Shown here: positions 24,558 through 32,429 of the stretch, piece after piece | Layout: each line of letters starts with the position of its first letter | Position numbering within the stretch: the first letter of the stretch is position 1 | Source: Natrialbaceae archaeon | GTDB lineage: Archaea > Halobacteriota > Halobacteria > Halobacteriales > Natrialbaceae | NCBI GenBank assembly: GCA_003559215.1 | Contig: PWMF01000011.1 | Coordinates: 1-43,065 of the forward strand | DNA length: 43,065 nucleotides | Reading direction: 5' to 3' | Notes under the pieces: model-generated | What the model saw: only the letters and a program-made list of their open reading frames with translations | Database searches by the model: none | What the model was told of the DNA's origin: nothing | Made by a program: the position numbers and the translations under genes

Positions 24558-25103
24558 TTACTTCGTCGCCTCTTCGAGGACGAGCGTGTCGTCCTCGAGG
24601 TAGTGCTCGAAGTGGTGGCCGTCGTCCTCCAGCGTCACGAGGATCTCGCGGAGGATCTCGGCGGTCGCGTAGTCGCCCAGGTTCTCCGCGAGCTCGATGC
24701 TGTCGCGCATCGACTCGATGATGTCGCCGTACATCTCGAGGTCGTTCTGGAACATCGTACGGACGTCGTAGACGTCCTCGCCCTCGAACTCGACGGTCGC
24801 GCGGGCCTCCTGGTTCGACGGACCGGAGACGGGAACGCCGCCCAGCGCCTGTGCGCGCTCGGCGATAACGTCGGCGCCCTCCTCGACGTGTTCGTACGCC
24901 TCCTCGAGGAACTCGTGGAGCGGGAGGAACTCCGCACCCTCGACGACCCAGTGGTGTTTCTTGAGCTGGTGGTACAGTACGTACGCGTTCGCCAGCTCCG
25001 TGTTCAACGCCTCGACGACCTGCTCGGCCTTCTCCTGGTCGAGCCGAAGCTCGTTCTCCTCGACGACGTCTGCCGGCTGACGGACTGTTTTCTGGGTGCT
25101 CAT
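24558..25103 (-). CDS. dpsA: DpsA ferritin-like DNA-protection protein
   Basis: A 181-aa Dps-type ferritin like Halobacterium DpsA, a dodecamer that oxidises and stores iron and protects DNA. The intersubunit ferroxidase ligands are visible in YHQLKKHHWVVEGAEFLPLHEFLEEAYEH (residues about 44-72, His and Glu/Asp of the W-x-H-type motif), and the C-terminal helix GHHFEHYLEDDT adds a His pair. Start MSTQKTVRQPADVV is typical of the haloarchaeal protein. TATA-like GTTTAAG (complement of 25132-25137) gives a very short leader. An A5TA T5 palindrome at 25149-25160 lies directly upstream of the TATA and could be a regulatory site. Confidence 0.95.
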   Translation of the reverse strand: MSTQKTVRQPADVVEENELRLDQEKAEQVVEALNTELANAYVLYHQLKKHHWVVEGAEFLPLHEFLEEAYEHVEEGADVIAERAQALGGVPVSGPSNQEARATVEFEGEDVYDVRTMFQNDLEMYGDIIESMRDSIELAENLGDYATAEILREILVTLEDDGHHFEHYLEDDTLVLEEATK

Positions 25104-27650: not shown

Positions 27651-28142
27651 ATGGCGACTGAACGGACCCGGCGGGCCGTGCTCGCGGCGTCCGGCTCCCT
27701 CGCGACGCTCGGACTCGCCGGCTGTTTCGGCGACGACGAGGAGTCCGAGGAGTACGTGACCGTCGAGGCGTTCGCCCTCACCGATCCCGAGACGGGGGAG
27801 TCACTCACGACGGTCGACGGGGACGGGTGGGAGGTCGGGCCGCTCCTCGTTCCGCTCGAGGGAAGACTCTCGGTCGGCGCTCGAGCCGAGGACGCCGACG
27901 GCGAGCTGACACTCGGCGAGGACGGGAGTTATCACCTCGGTGCCGTCGCCGTCGAGGAGGGAGACGAGACCGTCGCGATCGAACCCGGCGGCGACCACGT
28001 CGGTCTGGTCGGTCGATCGGCGGGGGCCACCGAGATTGCCGTCGAGCTCTGGGACGACGATCGGTTCGGGTGGGACTCCCCTCCGCTCGAGGTCGAGGTC
28101 GTCGACGACTTCGAGGGACCGATGAACCACACTAGCGACTAG
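27651..28142 (+). CDS. Tat lipoprotein with HDDHW-family domain lacking the His pair
   Basis: A 163-aa protein. Signal: MATERTRRAVLAASGSLATL with RR and lipobox LAGC (C25), exported by Tat and anchored by lipid. Residues 35-154 align with the domain of the next two genes: FALTDPETGE, GPLLVPLEGRLSV, EDADGELTLGED, GGDHVGLVG, TEIAVELWDDD and WDSPPLEVEVVDDFE. In place of HDDHW it has DGDGW (residues 56-60), so the putative metal site is reduced. Acidic linker after the Cys is short. It may be a regulatory or structural partner, or a decaying duplicate. First of five same-direction genes in the Zn/Mn-type uptake locus. Confidence 0.85.
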   Translation: MATERTRRAVLAASGSLATLGLAGCFGDDEESEEYVTVEAFALTDPETGESLTTVDGDGWEVGPLLVPLEGRLSVGARAEDADGELTLGEDGSYHLGAVAVEEGDETVAIEPGGDHVGLVGRSAGATEIAVELWDDDRFGWDSPPLEVEVVDDFEGPMNHTSD

Positions 28143-28296
28143 CGATTCAGCTTACTGGCGCAGTCTCTCCTCGAGACCGACCGGAGAGCGTCTCCGTCCC
28201 GCTCTGTGGACCTGTTACGTCTTCTGCTCTGCTCTACCACTATCGTTCGATCGTCGCCGCAGCGATTAATAATATCGTCAATTTCATTACTAACCC

Positions 28297-28311
28297 CTCG
28301 TACTCTACGAG
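28297..28311. promoter_or_regulatory. Palindrome before the His/Asp-rich lipoprotein
   Basis: CTCGTA-CTC-TACGAG, a perfect 6-nt inverted repeat with 3-nt centre, 12 nt before the ATG at 28324 and near the expected transcription start. Possible operator or leader hairpin. Confidence 0.4.
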
Positions 28312-28323
28312 TGGTATCTAACA

Positions 28324-29037
28324 ATGACGAACGATCGAACCAGCTCGACCCGTCGGAAGCTGCTCGCAGCGTCCGGTTCCCTCGCTGCACTCGGTATCGC
28401 CGGCTGTGTCGGCGACGACGACGAGGAGGACGAGGAGGGTGCGGCTAACGGCGACGACGAAGCCAACGGTGACGACCACGACGACGATCACGACGACGAC
28501 GATCACGACGACGATCATGATGACGACGATCATCACATGGACGTCGAAGAGTTCGAGCTGATCGACCACGAGTCCGGCGAGCAGCTCGCGTACGTCCACG
28601 ACGACCACTGGGATCACGGCCCGCTGTACGTTCCGCTCGAGGACGGCATCGCCGTTGAGGCCCACGCCGAGGACGCCGACGGCGAGGAGGTCGCCTTCGG
28701 CGAGGACGAGGAGTACCAGCTCGAGGCCGAGATCGCCGAGGGTGCCGAGGAGAACGTCGAGATCGAGTCCCACGGCGACCACGTCGAGCTAACCGGCGAG
28801 GAGGAGGGAATCACCGAGGTCGTCTTCCAGATCTGGCACGACGACCACTCCGACTGGGATTCGCCGGAGCTCGAGGTCGAAGTCGTCGAGGACTTCGACG
28901 CCGAAGAGAACCACGCCGACGGCGACTACCACGACGACGATCACGACCACGACGACGATCACGACCACGACGACGATCACGACCACGACGACGACCACGA
29001 CCACGACGACGACCACGACCACGACGACGACCACTAG
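28324..29037 (+). CDS. Tat lipoprotein, HDDHW domain with His/Asp-rich arms
   Basis: A 237-aa protein. RR signal with lipobox IAGC (C28). Residues 44-71 form an N-terminal His/Asp arm (DDHDDDHDDDDHDDD), 72-191 the shared domain (FELIDHESGEQLAY, VHDDHWDHGPLYVPL with HDDHW at 92-96, GDHVELTGEEEG, VVFQIWHDDHSDWDSPELEV), and 200-237 a C-terminal arm of six or more HDHDDD repeats. The arms offer about 25 histidines next to carboxylates, like the metal-sequestering loops of ZnuA or ZinT. Extracytoplasmic Zn or Mn capture is inferred. The gene is a paralogue of the previous one and precedes znuA by 194 nt. An IR lies just before the start. Confidence 0.88.
   Translation: MTNDRTSSTRRKLLAASGSLAALGIAGCVGDDDEEDEEGAANGDDEANGDDHDDDHDDDDHDDDHDDDDHHMDVEEFELIDHESGEQLAYVHDDHWDHGPLYVPLEDGIAVEAHAEDADGEEVAFGEDEEYQLEAEIAEGAEENVEIESHGDHVELTGEEEGITEVVFQIWHDDHSDWDSPELEVEVVEDFDAEENHADGDYHDDDHDHDDDHDHDDDHDHDDDHDHDDDHDHDDDH
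28922..29034 (+). repeat. Tandem 18-nt repeats encoding HDHDDD
   Basis: The 3' end of the lipoprotein gene consists of about six direct copies of an 18-nt unit (CACGACCACGACGACGAT/C). Later copies are identical, which points to recent slippage expansion. Confidence 0.8.
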
Positions 29038-29171
29038 CAACTCGGTTCCGCCCTCCCGCATCCGTAACCGACTCTCGTGTCACCCCCGTTCCGCCCGGAT
29101 ACGGTCTCCCTTTTGTCGGCTCCGTTCGATACTGCGGCTCGTTGTTATCACGCGACCGATCACTGCAACGA

Positions 29172-29201
29172 GTTATTAACTGGCCTCGCGCACATAATAA
29201 C
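29172..29201. promoter_or_regulatory. Spaced inverted repeat upstream of znuA
   Basis: GTTATTA at 29172-29178 and TAATAAC at 29195-29201 form a perfect 7-nt inverted repeat with 16-nt spacing, just upstream of a TATA-like TTTTATT (29205-29211). Possible binding site of a metal regulator; the real operator sequence for haloarchaeal znu genes is not known to me. Confidence 0.4.
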
Positions 29202-29231
29202 CCTTTTATTCGCCCGCTCGTATCTCCTCGT

Positions 29232-30617
29232 ATGACACGGTCACGCCGCGCAGTGTTGCGCTCGAGCGCCGGTGCGCTCTCCCTCGGCGTTCTCGCGGGC
29301 TGTCTGAGCGAGCCCGACGACGAGGGCGGGGACGCGGACGAGGGGTACGCCGCCTTCTTCACGCTCGCCGACTGGACGGAACAGCTCGTCGGCGACGAGA
29401 TGACGATCGAGAACCCGGTCGAAACCGGAGAGATGGGCCACGGCTGGGAGCCCCCGGTCGACCTCCAGCGCGAGATCACGGAGTCGGCGTTTTTCGTCTA
29501 CCTCGATTCGCCCGAGTTCGCCTGGGCGCAGGACGTCGCCGCCGACCTCGAGTCCGAGGACGTCGAGCTGATCGACGCCCTCGAGGCCGTCGAGGGACAG
29601 CTGATCCCGATGGACCGCGAGACCGACGAGGATCGCGAACCCGTCGAAGAGTACGACGGCGATCCGACGGCCGTCGAGGTCGCCGAGTTCGAACTCTACG
29701 ACCAACGTACTGGCGAAGAGGTCGCCTACTGGCACGACGATCACTGGCACGGCGGCGTTCCCGACGTCCCGCTCGACGGACAGCTCGCGATCGAGGGGGT
29801 CTTCGAGGACGCCGAGGGACGGGTCCTCCCGCTCGGCGAGGACGAACCGTTCGCGCTCGAGGCGAAGGTTCCCGACGGCGCTGACGCCGACGCCATCGAG
29901 ATCGAATCGCAGGGCGATCACGTCGAATTCCACGGCCTCGAGGAGGGCCGGACGATGGTCGTCTTCGAGCTGGTGGCCGACGGCGAGGTCGTCTGGGACA
30001 CGAGCGCGGACAACGCCTCGGTCGCGGTCGTCGAGGGCGACGACGAGGAATCCACCGAGTTCGCCGACCCACACGTCTGGGTCGATCCAGTTCTCGCTCA
30101 GGAGATGGTCGAGACGATCGCTGCCGAGCTGGGCGAGATCGATCCGGACAACGCCGACACGTACGAGGAAAACGCCGCCGACTACACCGATCGGATGGAC
30201 GACGTTCACCAGCAGTTCGAGGAGGTTGCCGAGAACGCGACCCGGGACGTCGCCGTCCTCGCGGGCCACCAGTCGTTCGGCTACCTCGAGGAGCGCTACG
30301 ACTTCGAGATCCGAACCCCCGTCGGCGTCTCGCCGGACGCGGTCGAATCGAGCGAGGACGTCTCGGAGCTGATCACTGTCGTCGAGGAACAGGATATCGA
30401 CACGATCCTCTACGATCCGTTCGAGACGCCCGATCCCGAGACTGACGTCCCACAGATGGTCGAGGTGTTGCTCGACGAGACCGACGCTACCGAGGCTGCG
30501 CCGGTCACCCCCGCGGAGGGGACGACCGAGGAGTGGAACGAGCAGGGATACGGCTGGGTCGAGCAGCTAGAGGAGGTCACGGTCCCGTCGCTCGCGAAAG
30601 CACTCGGCGCCGAGTAG
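29232..30617 (+). CDS. znuA: Zn/Mn ABC transporter substrate-binding lipoprotein with inserted HDDHW domain
   Basis: A 461-aa cluster A-I (ZnuA/TroA) lipoprotein; usual length is about 300-350. Tat-like RR signal and lipobox LAGC (C24). Ligand 1 is in GHGWEPP (H70), ligand 2 in ADPHVWVDP (H281), ligand 3 in AGHQSFGYLEERY (H346) and the acidic one in LYDPFETP (about D395). Residues 147-268, where other ZnuA proteins carry a His-rich loop, hold a full copy of the domain of the two preceding lipoproteins (FELYDQRTGEEVAY, HDDHWHGGV at 168-176, LGEDEPFALEA, GDHVEFHG). This fusion links the domain to the transporter. Start at 29232 fits the signal; an upstream ATG adds 30 residues without signal character. 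Followed by ATPase and permease genes. Confidence 0.92.
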   Translation: MTRSRRAVLRSSAGALSLGVLAGCLSEPDDEGGDADEGYAAFFTLADWTEQLVGDEMTIENPVETGEMGHGWEPPVDLQREITESAFFVYLDSPEFAWAQDVAADLESEDVELIDALEAVEGQLIPMDRETDEDREPVEEYDGDPTAVEVAEFELYDQRTGEEVAYWHDDHWHGGVPDVPLDGQLAIEGVFEDAEGRVLPLGEDEPFALEAKVPDGADADAIEIESQGDHVEFHGLEEGRTMVVFELVADGEVVWDTSADNASVAVVEGDDEESTEFADPHVWVDPVLAQEMVETIAAELGEIDPDNADTYEENAADYTDRMDDVHQQFEEVAENATRDVAVLAGHQSFGYLEERYDFEIRTPVGVSPDAVESSEDVSELITVVEEQDIDTILYDPFETPDPETDVPQMVEVLLDETDATEAAPVTPAEGTTEEWNEQGYGWVEQLEEVTVPSLAKALGAE

Positions 30618-30672
30618 ACGGCGAAATGGAAGACATAAGCATATCCGCGTTCGATACGCGAGTGAGAGGCCC

Positions 30673-31413
30673 GTGAGCTCGATCGTCGACATGGAACACG
30701 TGACGTTTTCTTACGGCGAGACCGTCGCCGTCAGAGACGTCTCGCTGACGATCGACGCGGGAGATTTCCTCGGGCTGGTCGGACCGAACGGCTCGGGGAA
30801 GACGACGCTGTTACACCTGATTCTCGGCCTGCATAGCCCCGACAGCGGGCGGATCGAACTGTTCGGCCAGCCGGTCGACGAGTTCGACCAGGGCGAGCGC
30901 ATCGGCTACGTCTCCCAGAAGGCCACGAGTCGCGGCGGGACGATGCCCGTTACCGTCCGTGAAGCGGTCACGATGGGACGGTTCGCCCACGCCGGCCACT
31001 CGCGGCTGACCGACACCGACCGCGAGATCGTCGAGGACGCCATCGAAACGGTCGGCATCACCGATTTGGCCGACCGGCGGATCAACGCGCTCTCGGGCGG
31101 ACAGCGCCAGCGCGCCTACATCGCACGAGCGCTTGCCTCCGAGGCCGACCTGCTGGCGCTGGACGAACCCACCGTCGGCGTCGACGCCGAGTCCCGGGAC
31201 GCGTTCTACAAGCTGCTCGACTCGCTCAACGACGACGGGATCACGATCGTCCTGATCGAGCACGACATCGGCGTCGTCACCGACCGGGCGGACCGAGTCG
31301 CCTGCATCAACACGGAGCTGTTCCACCACGGAGACACGGAATCGTTCGTCGAAAGCGACGCCTTGGAGCAGGCGTACGGAACGACCGGGCAGGTCGTCCA
31401 CCACCACCACTGA
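30673..31413 (+). CDS. znuC: Zn/Mn ABC transporter ATP-binding protein
   Basis: A 246-aa ABC ATPase from GTG 30673. Walker A is VGPNGSGKTTLL (residues 36-47), Q-loop in YVSQKA, signature LSGGQRQR, Walker B LLALDEPTVGVD and H-switch IEHDIG. The closest family is ZnuC/TroB/MntB, by FSYGETVAVRDVSL and SQKATSRGGTMPVTVREAV. The protein ends in VVHHHH, a natural four-His tail that may sense cytosolic metal. Next gene starts in its stop (TGATG), so ATPase and permease are translationally coupled. 55 nt after znuA. Confidence 0.95.
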   Translation: MSSIVDMEHVTFSYGETVAVRDVSLTIDAGDFLGLVGPNGSGKTTLLHLILGLHSPDSGRIELFGQPVDEFDQGERIGYVSQKATSRGGTMPVTVREAVTMGRFAHAGHSRLTDTDREIVEDAIETVGITDLADRRINALSGGQRQRAYIARALASEADLLALDEPTVGVDAESRDAFYKLLDSLNDDGITIVLIEHDIGVVTDRADRVACINTELFHHGDTESFVESDALEQAYGTTGQVVHHHH

Positions 31414-32429
31414 TGGAGCGGACAACCAGACGCCACCTCGAGCGGATCGGAATCGCGCTCACGGGGCTGTTCGCGGTCGTGATGATGATCTTTCTGGCCC
31501 TCGAGTGGCTCCAGGAGTACCCCTACGCGGGGACGCTGTACGATCAGTACACGGTCGCCGGAATGTGGCTCGACTACTACCTCGGAACGAGCGTCTTCGG
31601 CTACTCGTTTATGCTGCGGTCGATCGCGACGGGCGTGCTCGTCGGGATCGCCGCCCCGCTGGTCGGTACCTACCTCGTTCACCGAGAGATGGCTCTGATC
31701 GGCGAAACCCTCGCTCACACCGCGTTCGCGGGGGTCGCCATCGGGCTGCTCTTTAGCGCGACGACCGACTGGGACGGCTCCCTGCTCGTCTCCGCGCTCG
31801 TCGTCGCCGTGGTCGGCGCGTTGCTCGTCCAGTTTCTGTCCGAGCGGACGAACACCTACGGCGACGTGCCGATCGCGATCATGCTCACCGGCAGCTTCGC
31901 CGTCGGGACGCTGATCATCAGCTACGGTCGCGGCGGCTTCTCGGGGGTGAGTATCGAGGACTACCTGTTCGGGAGCGCGGCCGTCATCCCCGCCGAGGGC
32001 GCGCGGCTGGTCGCGATCCTGACCGTCGCAGTCGTCGGCGTCGTCGCGCTCACCTACAAGCAGCTGCTCTTCATCACGTTCGACGAGCAGGCCGCCCGGG
32101 TCGCCCGCCTCAACGTCACCTGGTACAACACGCTGCTCATCGTGATGACCGCCGTCGTCGTCGTCGGCGCCATGCAGATCATGGGCGTTATTCTCGTCGC
32201 CGCAATGCTCGTCATCCCGGTCGCAGCGGCCTCCCAAGTCGCCCACGGGTTCCGCGAGACGCTCTCGCTGTCGATCCTGTTCGGCCAGGTGTCAGTGCTC
32301 GGCGGGTTCGGCTTCGCGATCTCGCAGGGACTGCCACCCGGCGGGTCGATCGTCGTCGTGGCGATCGGGATCTACGCGCTGGCGATCCTGGCCTCGAGCC
32401 GGGCCAGCAGCGCGATCTCGATGCATTAG
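31413..32429 (+). CDS. znuB: Zn/Mn ABC transporter permease
   Basis: A 338-aa ABC-3 family permease with eight to nine membrane segments, first at about residues 11-30 and later ones from 62 to 335. Conserved parts: LIGETLAHTAFAGVAIG (about residues 93-109), the cytoplasmic coupling region FDEQAARVARLNVTWYN, VVVVGAMQIMGVILVAAMLV and GGFGFAISQGLPPGGSIVVV. It is longer than bacterial ZnuB (about 260 aa) because of an N-terminal extension with one extra helix and a loop around residues 35-60. Forms the channel for the metal delivered by the lipoprotein encoded upstream. Confidence 0.94.
   Translation: MERTTRRHLERIGIALTGLFAVVMMIFLALEWLQEYPYAGTLYDQYTVAGMWLDYYLGTSVFGYSFMLRSIATGVLVGIAAPLVGTYLVHREMALIGETLAHTAFAGVAIGLLFSATTDWDGSLLVSALVVAVVGALLVQFLSERTNTYGDVPIAIMLTGSFAVGTLIISYGRGGFSGVSIEDYLFGSAAVIPAEGARLVAILTVAVVGVVALTYKQLLFITFDEQAARVARLNVTWYNTLLIVMTAVVVVGAMQIMGVILVAAMLVIPVAAASQVAHGFRETLSLSILFGQVSVLGGFGFAISQGLPPGGSIVVVAIGIYALAILASSRASSAISMH

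Follow-up and report, generated by a model that had tools for sequence, protein, structure and literature searches.

Positions 1 to 43,065 of contig PWMF01000011.1 from a Natrialbaceae archaeon (assembly GCA_003559215.1), the whole stretch of DNA analysed here and referred to as the window, contain a five-gene locus (27651–32429) that encodes a ZnuABC-type ATP-binding cassette (ABC) importer and two lipoproteins, with one small domain recurring in three of the five proteins. All features of the locus lie on the + strand. The first gene encodes lipoprotein 1 (27651..28142; 163 amino acids (aa), with the twin-arginine translocation (Tat) signal and lipobox recognized by eye), which holds one degenerate domain copy (27756..28112) where DGDGW replaces HxxHW. 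Lipoprotein 2 (28324..29037; 237 aa, Tat-type) also has one copy (28537..28896), with the motif HDDHW, set between His/Asp-rich runs. In translation its residues 203–237 form a C-terminal His/Asp repeat tail (28930..29034); similar tails are present at loci L146, L147 and L151, with a shorter one at L150. The third gene encodes ZnuA, a zinc-type substrate-binding lipoprotein of 461 aa (29232..30617) that matches PF01297 (ZnuA, cluster A-I) with 142.7 bits over residues 40–430, passing the curated cut-off of 29. It carries the third domain copy as an insert (29673..30038), with the motif HDDHWHG at residues 168–174 (29733..29753). An ATPase of the ZnuC type (30673..31413; PF00005, ABC_tran, 8.7e-34) and a permease of the ZnuB type (31413..32429; PF00950, ABC-3, 1.3e-55) accompany znuA in the operon. 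The gene coordinates are those of the original prediction, and Pfam bears out its calls for ZnuA, the ATPase and the permease. Genome-wide there are five domain copies at E ≤ 1: the three at the locus and two elsewhere, in a second ZnuA (contig C119) and in an orphan lipoprotein (C192). The genome's third ZnuA (C111) is domain-free.

The two lipoproteins and ZnuA residues ~147–268 share a homologous domain of ~118 aa, and the three copies align over their full length with pairwise identities of 39–52%. Smith-Waterman comparisons against 1000 shuffles gave z scores of 39.6 for lipoprotein 1 and lipoprotein 2 (63/121 identical), 27.8 for lipoprotein 2 and the ZnuA insert (59/121) and 16.6 for lipoprotein 1 and the ZnuA insert (42/108). 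As controls, lipoprotein 2 was compared in the same way with the N and C lobes of ZnuA and showed no similarity (z of -0.5 and -0.9). Judged from these alignments, the homology of the three window copies is beyond reasonable doubt. The earlier claim of one domain in three proteins is thus borne out by shuffle z scores of 17–40, and so is the motif order it gave, with HDDHW in lipoprotein 2 and ZnuA and DGDGW in lipoprotein 1. A profile that includes these copies matches them with E values of 1.2e-50, 1.9e-56 and 2.1e-54 for copies 1, 2 and 3, respectively.

The AlphaFold model of the lipoprotein 2 domain, built from a 119-copy alignment, is all-beta and probably immunoglobulin (Ig)-like (predicted local distance difference test (pLDDT) 95.1, predicted template modelling score (pTM) 0.89). 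Its 11-strand order is repeated at residues 150–267 of the ZnuA model (24 sequences; pLDDT 83, pTM 0.73), so that the two modelled copies share a fold, as the earlier note had proposed to check. Lipoprotein 1 probably has this fold too, since it is 52% identical to lipoprotein 2. The structure nearest to the ZnuA model is that of Zn-bound AdcA (7jj8, E 1.4e-15). In the model the insert sits between helix 116–123 and helix 286–303, the latter coming after the DPHVW ligand motif. By alignment it directly precedes this motif, where AdcA has a short acidic/His loop, in agreement with the predicted replacement of a His-rich loop. For the domain itself the best fold matches in the PDB are generic sandwiches, Ig-like folds among them, and comprise a long Rib domain (9avk, E 2e-4, template modelling (TM) score 0.48), SbsC, RhoGDI and filamin; the matches listed are 7–17% identical, with TM about 0.5 or less by query length.

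No significant family was returned for the domain by searches of Pfam, NCBIfam and PDB sequences, made with single proteins and with 82 copies. The best E values for the 82-copy set were 0.0028 in Pfam (Ig_NUP210_15th, 3/82 members), 0.0065 in NCBIfam and 0.04 in PDB. In PHROGs the sole match was to the C lobe of ZnuA and none was to the domain, and a search of plasmid records with one typical copy gave no match. The domain, already called undescribed in the original prediction, is a new family: neither it, nor its use within ZnuA and across metals, nor the haloarchaeal operator presented below was found in these databases or in the open-licence literature searched (titles and abstract beginnings). 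The working principle of a surface scavenger that feeds a zinc-binding protein is already known.

Of the 196 distinct copies long enough to use, 142 have the HxxHWH motif, the best-conserved feature of the domain, and another 26 read HxxHW[DE]. Among the 71 ZnuA inserts not labelled urease-linked H23, H26 and W27 of the domain are invariant and the third histidine is kept in 68. The same three residues are present in all seven inserts labelled urease-linked, two of which come from locus L076, where the label is spurious. Later histidine sites vary in the ZnuA inserts and are common in free copies. The His pair is missing in 16/196 copies, which more often lack other histidines as well (Fisher p 5e-5 to 0.04, uncorrected for relatedness). 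In the window the full HxxHWH is found in the ZnuA insert only; lipoprotein 2 has HDDHWD and lipoprotein 1 DGDGWE. In 24 of 24 aligned ZnuA sequences the insert residues H168, H171, W172, H173 and G174 are invariant, and so are the core ligands H70, H281 and H346, which line up with those of AdcA and YcdH.

Two genes of the locus are preceded by a 30-bp inverted repeat, GTTAWTAA-N14-TTAWTAAC, that ends ~30 bp ahead of the start codon. Before lipoprotein 2 it reads ATTAATAA-N14-TTACTAAC (28265..28294, 29 bases to the ATG) and before znuA GTTATTAA-N14-ATAATAAC (29172..29201, 30 bases to the ATG), the latter being kept in orthologues. The pattern, which was shaped on these two sites, has no match in 100 shuffled windows. 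Allowing up to 3 mismatches, 97 sites are present in 1.42 Mb of collected regions versus 7–12 in five mononucleotide shuffles, and 88 of the sites fall in the haloarchaeal part (74 loci, 1.11 Mb). There a site lies near the start (from 120 bases before to 200 bases inside the longest frame) of 34/53 domain-bearing ZnuA, 28/47 free copies and 3/7 surface proteins, versus 26/634 other open reading frames (ORFs).

In the whole genome there are five sites with up to 2 mismatches: those of lipoprotein 2 and znuA and three others. We kept to this threshold because the 3-mismatch pattern is not specific, with 16 sites versus 12 in a reversed control. The three other sites precede two COG0523 GTPase genes and two PF13454 oxidoreductase genes, one site lying between a divergent gene pair. 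One COG0523 gene was scanned (cobW 6e-48, CobW_C 7e-25) and the second was identified by sequence. A site with at most 1 mismatch is present in 25/41 genomes of the family, versus 3/41 for the reversed control. Ten relatives' loci were opened, and nine have at the site znuA (six, four of them domain-free), COG0523 (two) or the oxidoreductase (one); at the tenth, L207, none of these three is present. The called frame runs across the site in L200, L202 and L205. Because relatives have the operator before domain-free znuA genes, it seems from these comparisons to be older than the presence of the domain in ZnuA. Zinc regulons include some members of COG0523, according to the available part of PMC2770081, and since the operator is common to COG0523 genes we infer that the locus is under zinc control.

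Two further kinds of gene are found at such zinc-type operators. A FeoB-like GTPase with Gate domains stands beside COG0523 and the operator at L197:5160-6848 (-), L183, L200 and L205; the arrangement occurs in this genome and two relatives, and perhaps represents a further metal transporter of the regulon. FAD/NAD oxidoreductases of PF13454 lie at or near the operator at L197:3343-4548 (-), L198:4091-5359 (-) and L067:4408-5676 (+).

A four-copy profile of the domain matches 37/195 genomes of the order. In the phylum sample an 82-copy profile matches 19/392 genomes (with at most 11 candidates scored per genome), and beyond the order these belong to one genus only, with three genomes, methanogen-like by gene reading. 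In the phylum of Tindallia 6/398 genomes match, the Tindallia genome included, two of the matches being weak. A scan of named genomes gave 56 loci. The archaeal ones are in haloarchaea and in Thermoplasmata metagenome-assembled genomes (MAGs), and the bacterial ones in Syntrophomonadaceae, Tindallia, Clostridiaceae, Mollicutes/Izimaplasma, Nitriliruptoria, Myxococcales, Lujinxingia and Gemmatimonadetes. Left out of the counts below are L071, the weak matches L090 and L091, and eight named loci that repeat earlier regions. By name, 34/56 named loci come from the soda-lake MAG sets CSSed, CSBr, B1Sed, T1Sed and T3Sed (some MAGs give two), and three more, named Tc-Br11, come from what we take to be soda brine. 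The scan patterns derive from haloarchaeal copies, five of seven from CSSed MAGs, and the collection is rich in such MAGs, so the soda-lake excess is an enrichment by eye and not a test. The available parts of PMC6146748 and PMC6704655 tie the five sets to the Kulunda soda lakes, with pH around ten for the sediment set.

A profile search for further copies and their neighbours had been suggested, and it found linkage to metal transport in both archaea and bacteria. Genes of the znu, cbi or urease type are present at 41/51 loci of the order sample (window included), 39 of them through a domain-bearing ZnuA, and a free or surface copy stands beside that ZnuA in 22 of the 39. For the non-duplicate named loci the figure is 34/48, with 27 through a domain-bearing ZnuA and 16 of these with a free or surface copy; 2/5 methanogen-like loci have cbiM. 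At seven of the 51 order-sample loci (L040, L067, L074, L082, L087, L088 and L089) our searches found no metal gene. At L067 and L074 sites resembling the operator stand ahead of genes for a regulon-type oxidoreductase or for surface proteins. In the Bacillota locus L174 the domain is present and no transporter is seen beside it.

The domain is not zinc-specific, and a restriction to zinc loci was rejected in view of its cobalt, urease, P19 and NosL settings. The znuABC setting is found in haloarchaea, Thermoplasmata (2–3 copies in ZnuA) and Mollicutes-type bacteria; in the latter, L137 and L145 have the same layout of free copy, ZnuA insert, ATPase and permease, and the L145 ZnuA is recognized by Pfam (1.6e-66). 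In the cobalt energy-coupling factor (ECF) setting a domain lipoprotein lies between cbiQ and cbiM in six named and two further Bacillota loci, with an ATPase gene also in between in the five read gene by gene. The methanogen-like genus has a two-copy anchored protein ahead of cbiM. The CbiM and CbiQ calls of this setting were made with Pfam in L103 and L133. Beside urease genes a domain-bearing ZnuA is found in five order-sample loci, including this genome, where the short contig C119 shows UreB alone, and also in Natronococcus sp. A-GB7. The urease link of L076, a weak amidohydrolase match, was rejected. Two genomes have the domain as the C-terminal part of a membrane protein whose gene immediately precedes those of UreB and UreC. 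We read these proteins as putatively UreH-like (NicO-like); the Pfam matches (L075: NicO 5e-5; L079: MFS_1 6e-5, then NicO 0.007) are all below cut-offs. The iron setting, seen in three genomes, is a domain lipoprotein whose gene overlaps or adjoins one for a single protein with Iron_transport (P19) and DUF7350, identified by Pfam in two genomes and by sequence match in the third. A copper setting was met at L181:5704-6780 of Halorubrum vacuolatum, where NosL is fused to the domain beside CopC/CopD.

Taken together, we read the locus as a zinc-starvation locus, a ZnuABC importer with surface lipoproteins built on a small Ig-like metal-capture domain, and put the probability of this reading at about 0.65. 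The original prediction had left the metal as zinc or manganese. Zinc probably holds and manganese is set aside, since both the three-His ligand set and the operator common to COG0523 genes make zinc the likelier of the two. Zn(II) would be bound through the HxxHxH histidines and perhaps also the GDH motif. At the cell surface, where zinc would be scarce owing to carbonate and high pH, lipoprotein 2 with its His/Asp tails would capture it; the metal would move first to the related domain of ZnuA and from that to the core site H70/H281/H346, and ZnuCB would import it. The same module would have been fitted to the cobalt ECF system, the urease-side permease and ZnuA-like protein, P19 iron and NosL copper. 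With little better than even confidence we extend this to a general picture, in which an extracellular HxxHWH Ig-like capture domain has spread among haloarchaea, Thermoplasmata, a methanogen-like genus and soda-lake bacterial phyla and been plugged into importers for zinc (ABC), cobalt (ECF), urease-linked nickel (ABC or permease), iron (P19) and copper (NosL) in response to the shortage of metal that comes with high carbonate and pH; a zinc regulon of haloarchaea, marked by the defined 30-bp operator, would belong to the same picture.

Capture by the lipoprotein and hand-over to ZnuA through the like domain are likely because analogues are known in PhtD-AdcAII and AztD-AztC. AdcA, which carries ZinT at its C-terminus, likewise combines a binding protein with an extra metal-binding domain (binding by the domain here is predicted), and is nearest to the ZnuA core model; here, however, the extra domain is inserted before DPHxW and is not ZinT by Pfam. 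PhtD has been proposed as a zinc scavenger and passes zinc to AdcAII in vitro, and three histidines and a glutamate of the Pht triad bind zinc (PMC3842936, available part). As in that system, a free surface protein with HxxHxH spacing is encoded beside a zinc-binding ABC lipoprotein, and the resemblance is one of motif and operon logic only. The Pht unit is three-stranded whereas the domain here is modelled as all-beta Ig-like, only 1/82 domain members reaches PF04270 (E 0.021, none significant), and the same domain is here also found within the binding protein and in nickel/cobalt settings. AztD, a periplasmic or surface zinc protein serving a ZnuA-like protein, hands zinc to AztC (PMC6689063, available part). 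It is a beta-propeller, unlike the domain model here, and the AztC, AztB and AztA models score below their cut-offs at this locus (84.7/350, 130.5/280 and 191.9/220 bits). The znuA1C1B1 genes of Haloferax volcanii, likewise a haloarchaeon, form an operon that encodes a putative zinc transporter of the ABC type, but the available part of PMC8155600 mentions no such domain, lipoproteins or operator, and the terms lipoprotein and histidine are absent from its main text as available.

Several points weigh against these readings. The operator pattern was derived from the two window sites once these were known, and no site (≤3 mismatches) is present at 19/53 haloarchaeal domain-bearing ZnuA, among them the five urease-linked ones, or at 19/47 free copies; the two permease fusions and three P19-linked copies also lack it at this threshold. 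COG0523 is only in part zinc-linked (PMC2770081, available part). ZnuA is present in 125/195 genomes of the order, so most haloarchaea with ZnuA are domain-free, and a profile seeded with ZnuA inserts favours finding ZnuA inserts. Wide occurrence of the domain away from metal transport genes, combined with a lack of metal binding, had been named in advance as refuting. Occurrence without metal genes does exist: among the 38 loci that lack an insert in ZnuA, 11 have znu, cbi or urease genes (14 counting P19), and of the other 27 several are short contigs and others full-length (for example L142, L157 and L158). Most loci that hold a copy outside ZnuA nevertheless have such genes (49/76), and 3 more have a P19-type iron gene.

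A less likely alternative is that the domain binds metal as a store, buffer or docking piece and not as a relay, the insert tuning affinity or docking the lipoprotein while the core takes zinc from solution. It would suit the occurrence of the domain in cobalt ECF operons and permease fusions, which show no substrate-binding protein, the 2–4 copies held by some lipoproteins and surface proteins, as expected for storage, and the second His group of free copies, often lost in ZnuA inserts, which is also a point against a relay. However, the insert directly precedes DPHxW in both haloarchaea and Mollicutes-type bacteria, and the two sets of inserts fall in different parts of the domain tree (a quick tree with few columns); both points favour a role at the core site. 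On this tree the starred branches force at least 3 label changes, possibly including losses.

We give little credence to a manganese or iron transporter with the operator as a DtxR/MntR-type iron or manganese box. Binding proteins of cluster A-I do carry Mn or Fe as well, a FeoB-like gene adjoins one operator site, and DtxR/MntR-like repressors are described as archaeal metal regulators (PMC2770081, available part). Against this, COG0523 paralogues, a subset of which is in zinc regulons (same source), have the operator. The third ligand is His346, as in the zinc proteins AdcA and YcdH, while Mn-type binding proteins use Glu at this position. We give even less to the view that the domain is a commonplace Ig-like module of surface or adhesion proteins, with an acidic His-rich make-up that is a halophile adaptation and a place beside transporters that is incidental. 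The generic fold matches (Rib domains, S-layer SbsC), the copies in large surface proteins and one GLUG-motif protein, and the 27/38 insert-less loci speak for it; histidines conserved at fixed positions, a link to at least four metal systems that recurs in archaea as well as bacteria, and the operator common to COG0523 genes speak against it.

Lipoprotein 1 had been noted to lack the His pair, and the loss is common to the three orthologues found, which read DGDGW, DGDRW and DGDGW (L147, L150 and L151, respectively). In a quick tree it nests within the lipoprotein 2 clade of Natronococcus and relatives. Its ratios of non-synonymous to synonymous substitution (dN/dS) against these three loci are 0.15, 0.42 and 0.25, close to those of lipoprotein 2 (0.14, 0.48 and 0.17) and ZnuA (0.15, 0.35 and 0.12). 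At a fourth Natronococcus locus, L146, there is no copy 1, and none of the four lipoprotein 1 genes has an operator (≤3 mismatches). From clade position, dN/dS, orthologue motifs and L146, lipoprotein 1 is by all sequence indications a retained duplicate without the His pair, under purifying selection and not present in every relative. It would have arisen from lipoprotein 2 and been kept for a role other than metal binding through the lost motif, and such a non-binding role is plausible, with the regulation or scaffolding proposed earlier no more than a conjecture.

Soda brines reach molar carbonate and a pH near ten (PMC6146748, available part), from which free metal should be low, although no paper on low free metal in soda brines was found in the open-licence literature search. 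To the question of how zinc, nickel and cobalt are acquired there, one capture domain on different importers of unrelated organisms would be a testable answer. That the domain accompanies or forms part of uptake machinery for zinc, cobalt and nickel in other archaea and bacteria, many of them from soda lakes, suggests that scarce metals are caught in a common way. The domain may serve as a marker for metal-starved life and offers a compact module as a candidate for metal binding. With the operator, a zinc regulon is predicted for haloarchaea; according to the available part of PMC2770081, no Zur homologue had been recognized in archaea as of 2009.

Variants of the domain and other inserts were also observed. 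Large secreted proteins (627–1049 aa) at L045, L048, L065, L067, L074 and L109 join the domain to another repeat of ~110 aa (..NEHACLHGDYDDRTPL..EVETPEDG), which has no significant Pfam family in those scanned; some of these proteins are under the operator. The methanogen-like genus has membrane-anchored one-copy proteins (L102:6444-7619, L104:7548-8105 and L105:6033-7208), near formate dehydrogenase genes in L102 and L105. At L073:10948-11574 (-) a lipoprotein downstream of znuB, on the opposite strand to it, has its domain split mid-way by an acidic stretch. The frame at L071:6995-7459 (+) is a solid match (1.5e-25) with a full domain (HGHWHG) that lacks a usable start codon close to where it begins; either the gene is broken or the sequence is in error, and no metal gene is seen beside it. 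Five haloarchaeal ZnuA (L162–L166; ORFs of 485–518 aa) have a different insert of ~150 aa before DPHxW (WEWAGLYHL..., GDHGIHHVEE), flanked by His-rich runs; in the one scanned, Pfam finds ZnuA only. In the window itself, a ferritin-like protein is encoded at 24558-25103 (-), about 2.5 kb ahead of the locus.

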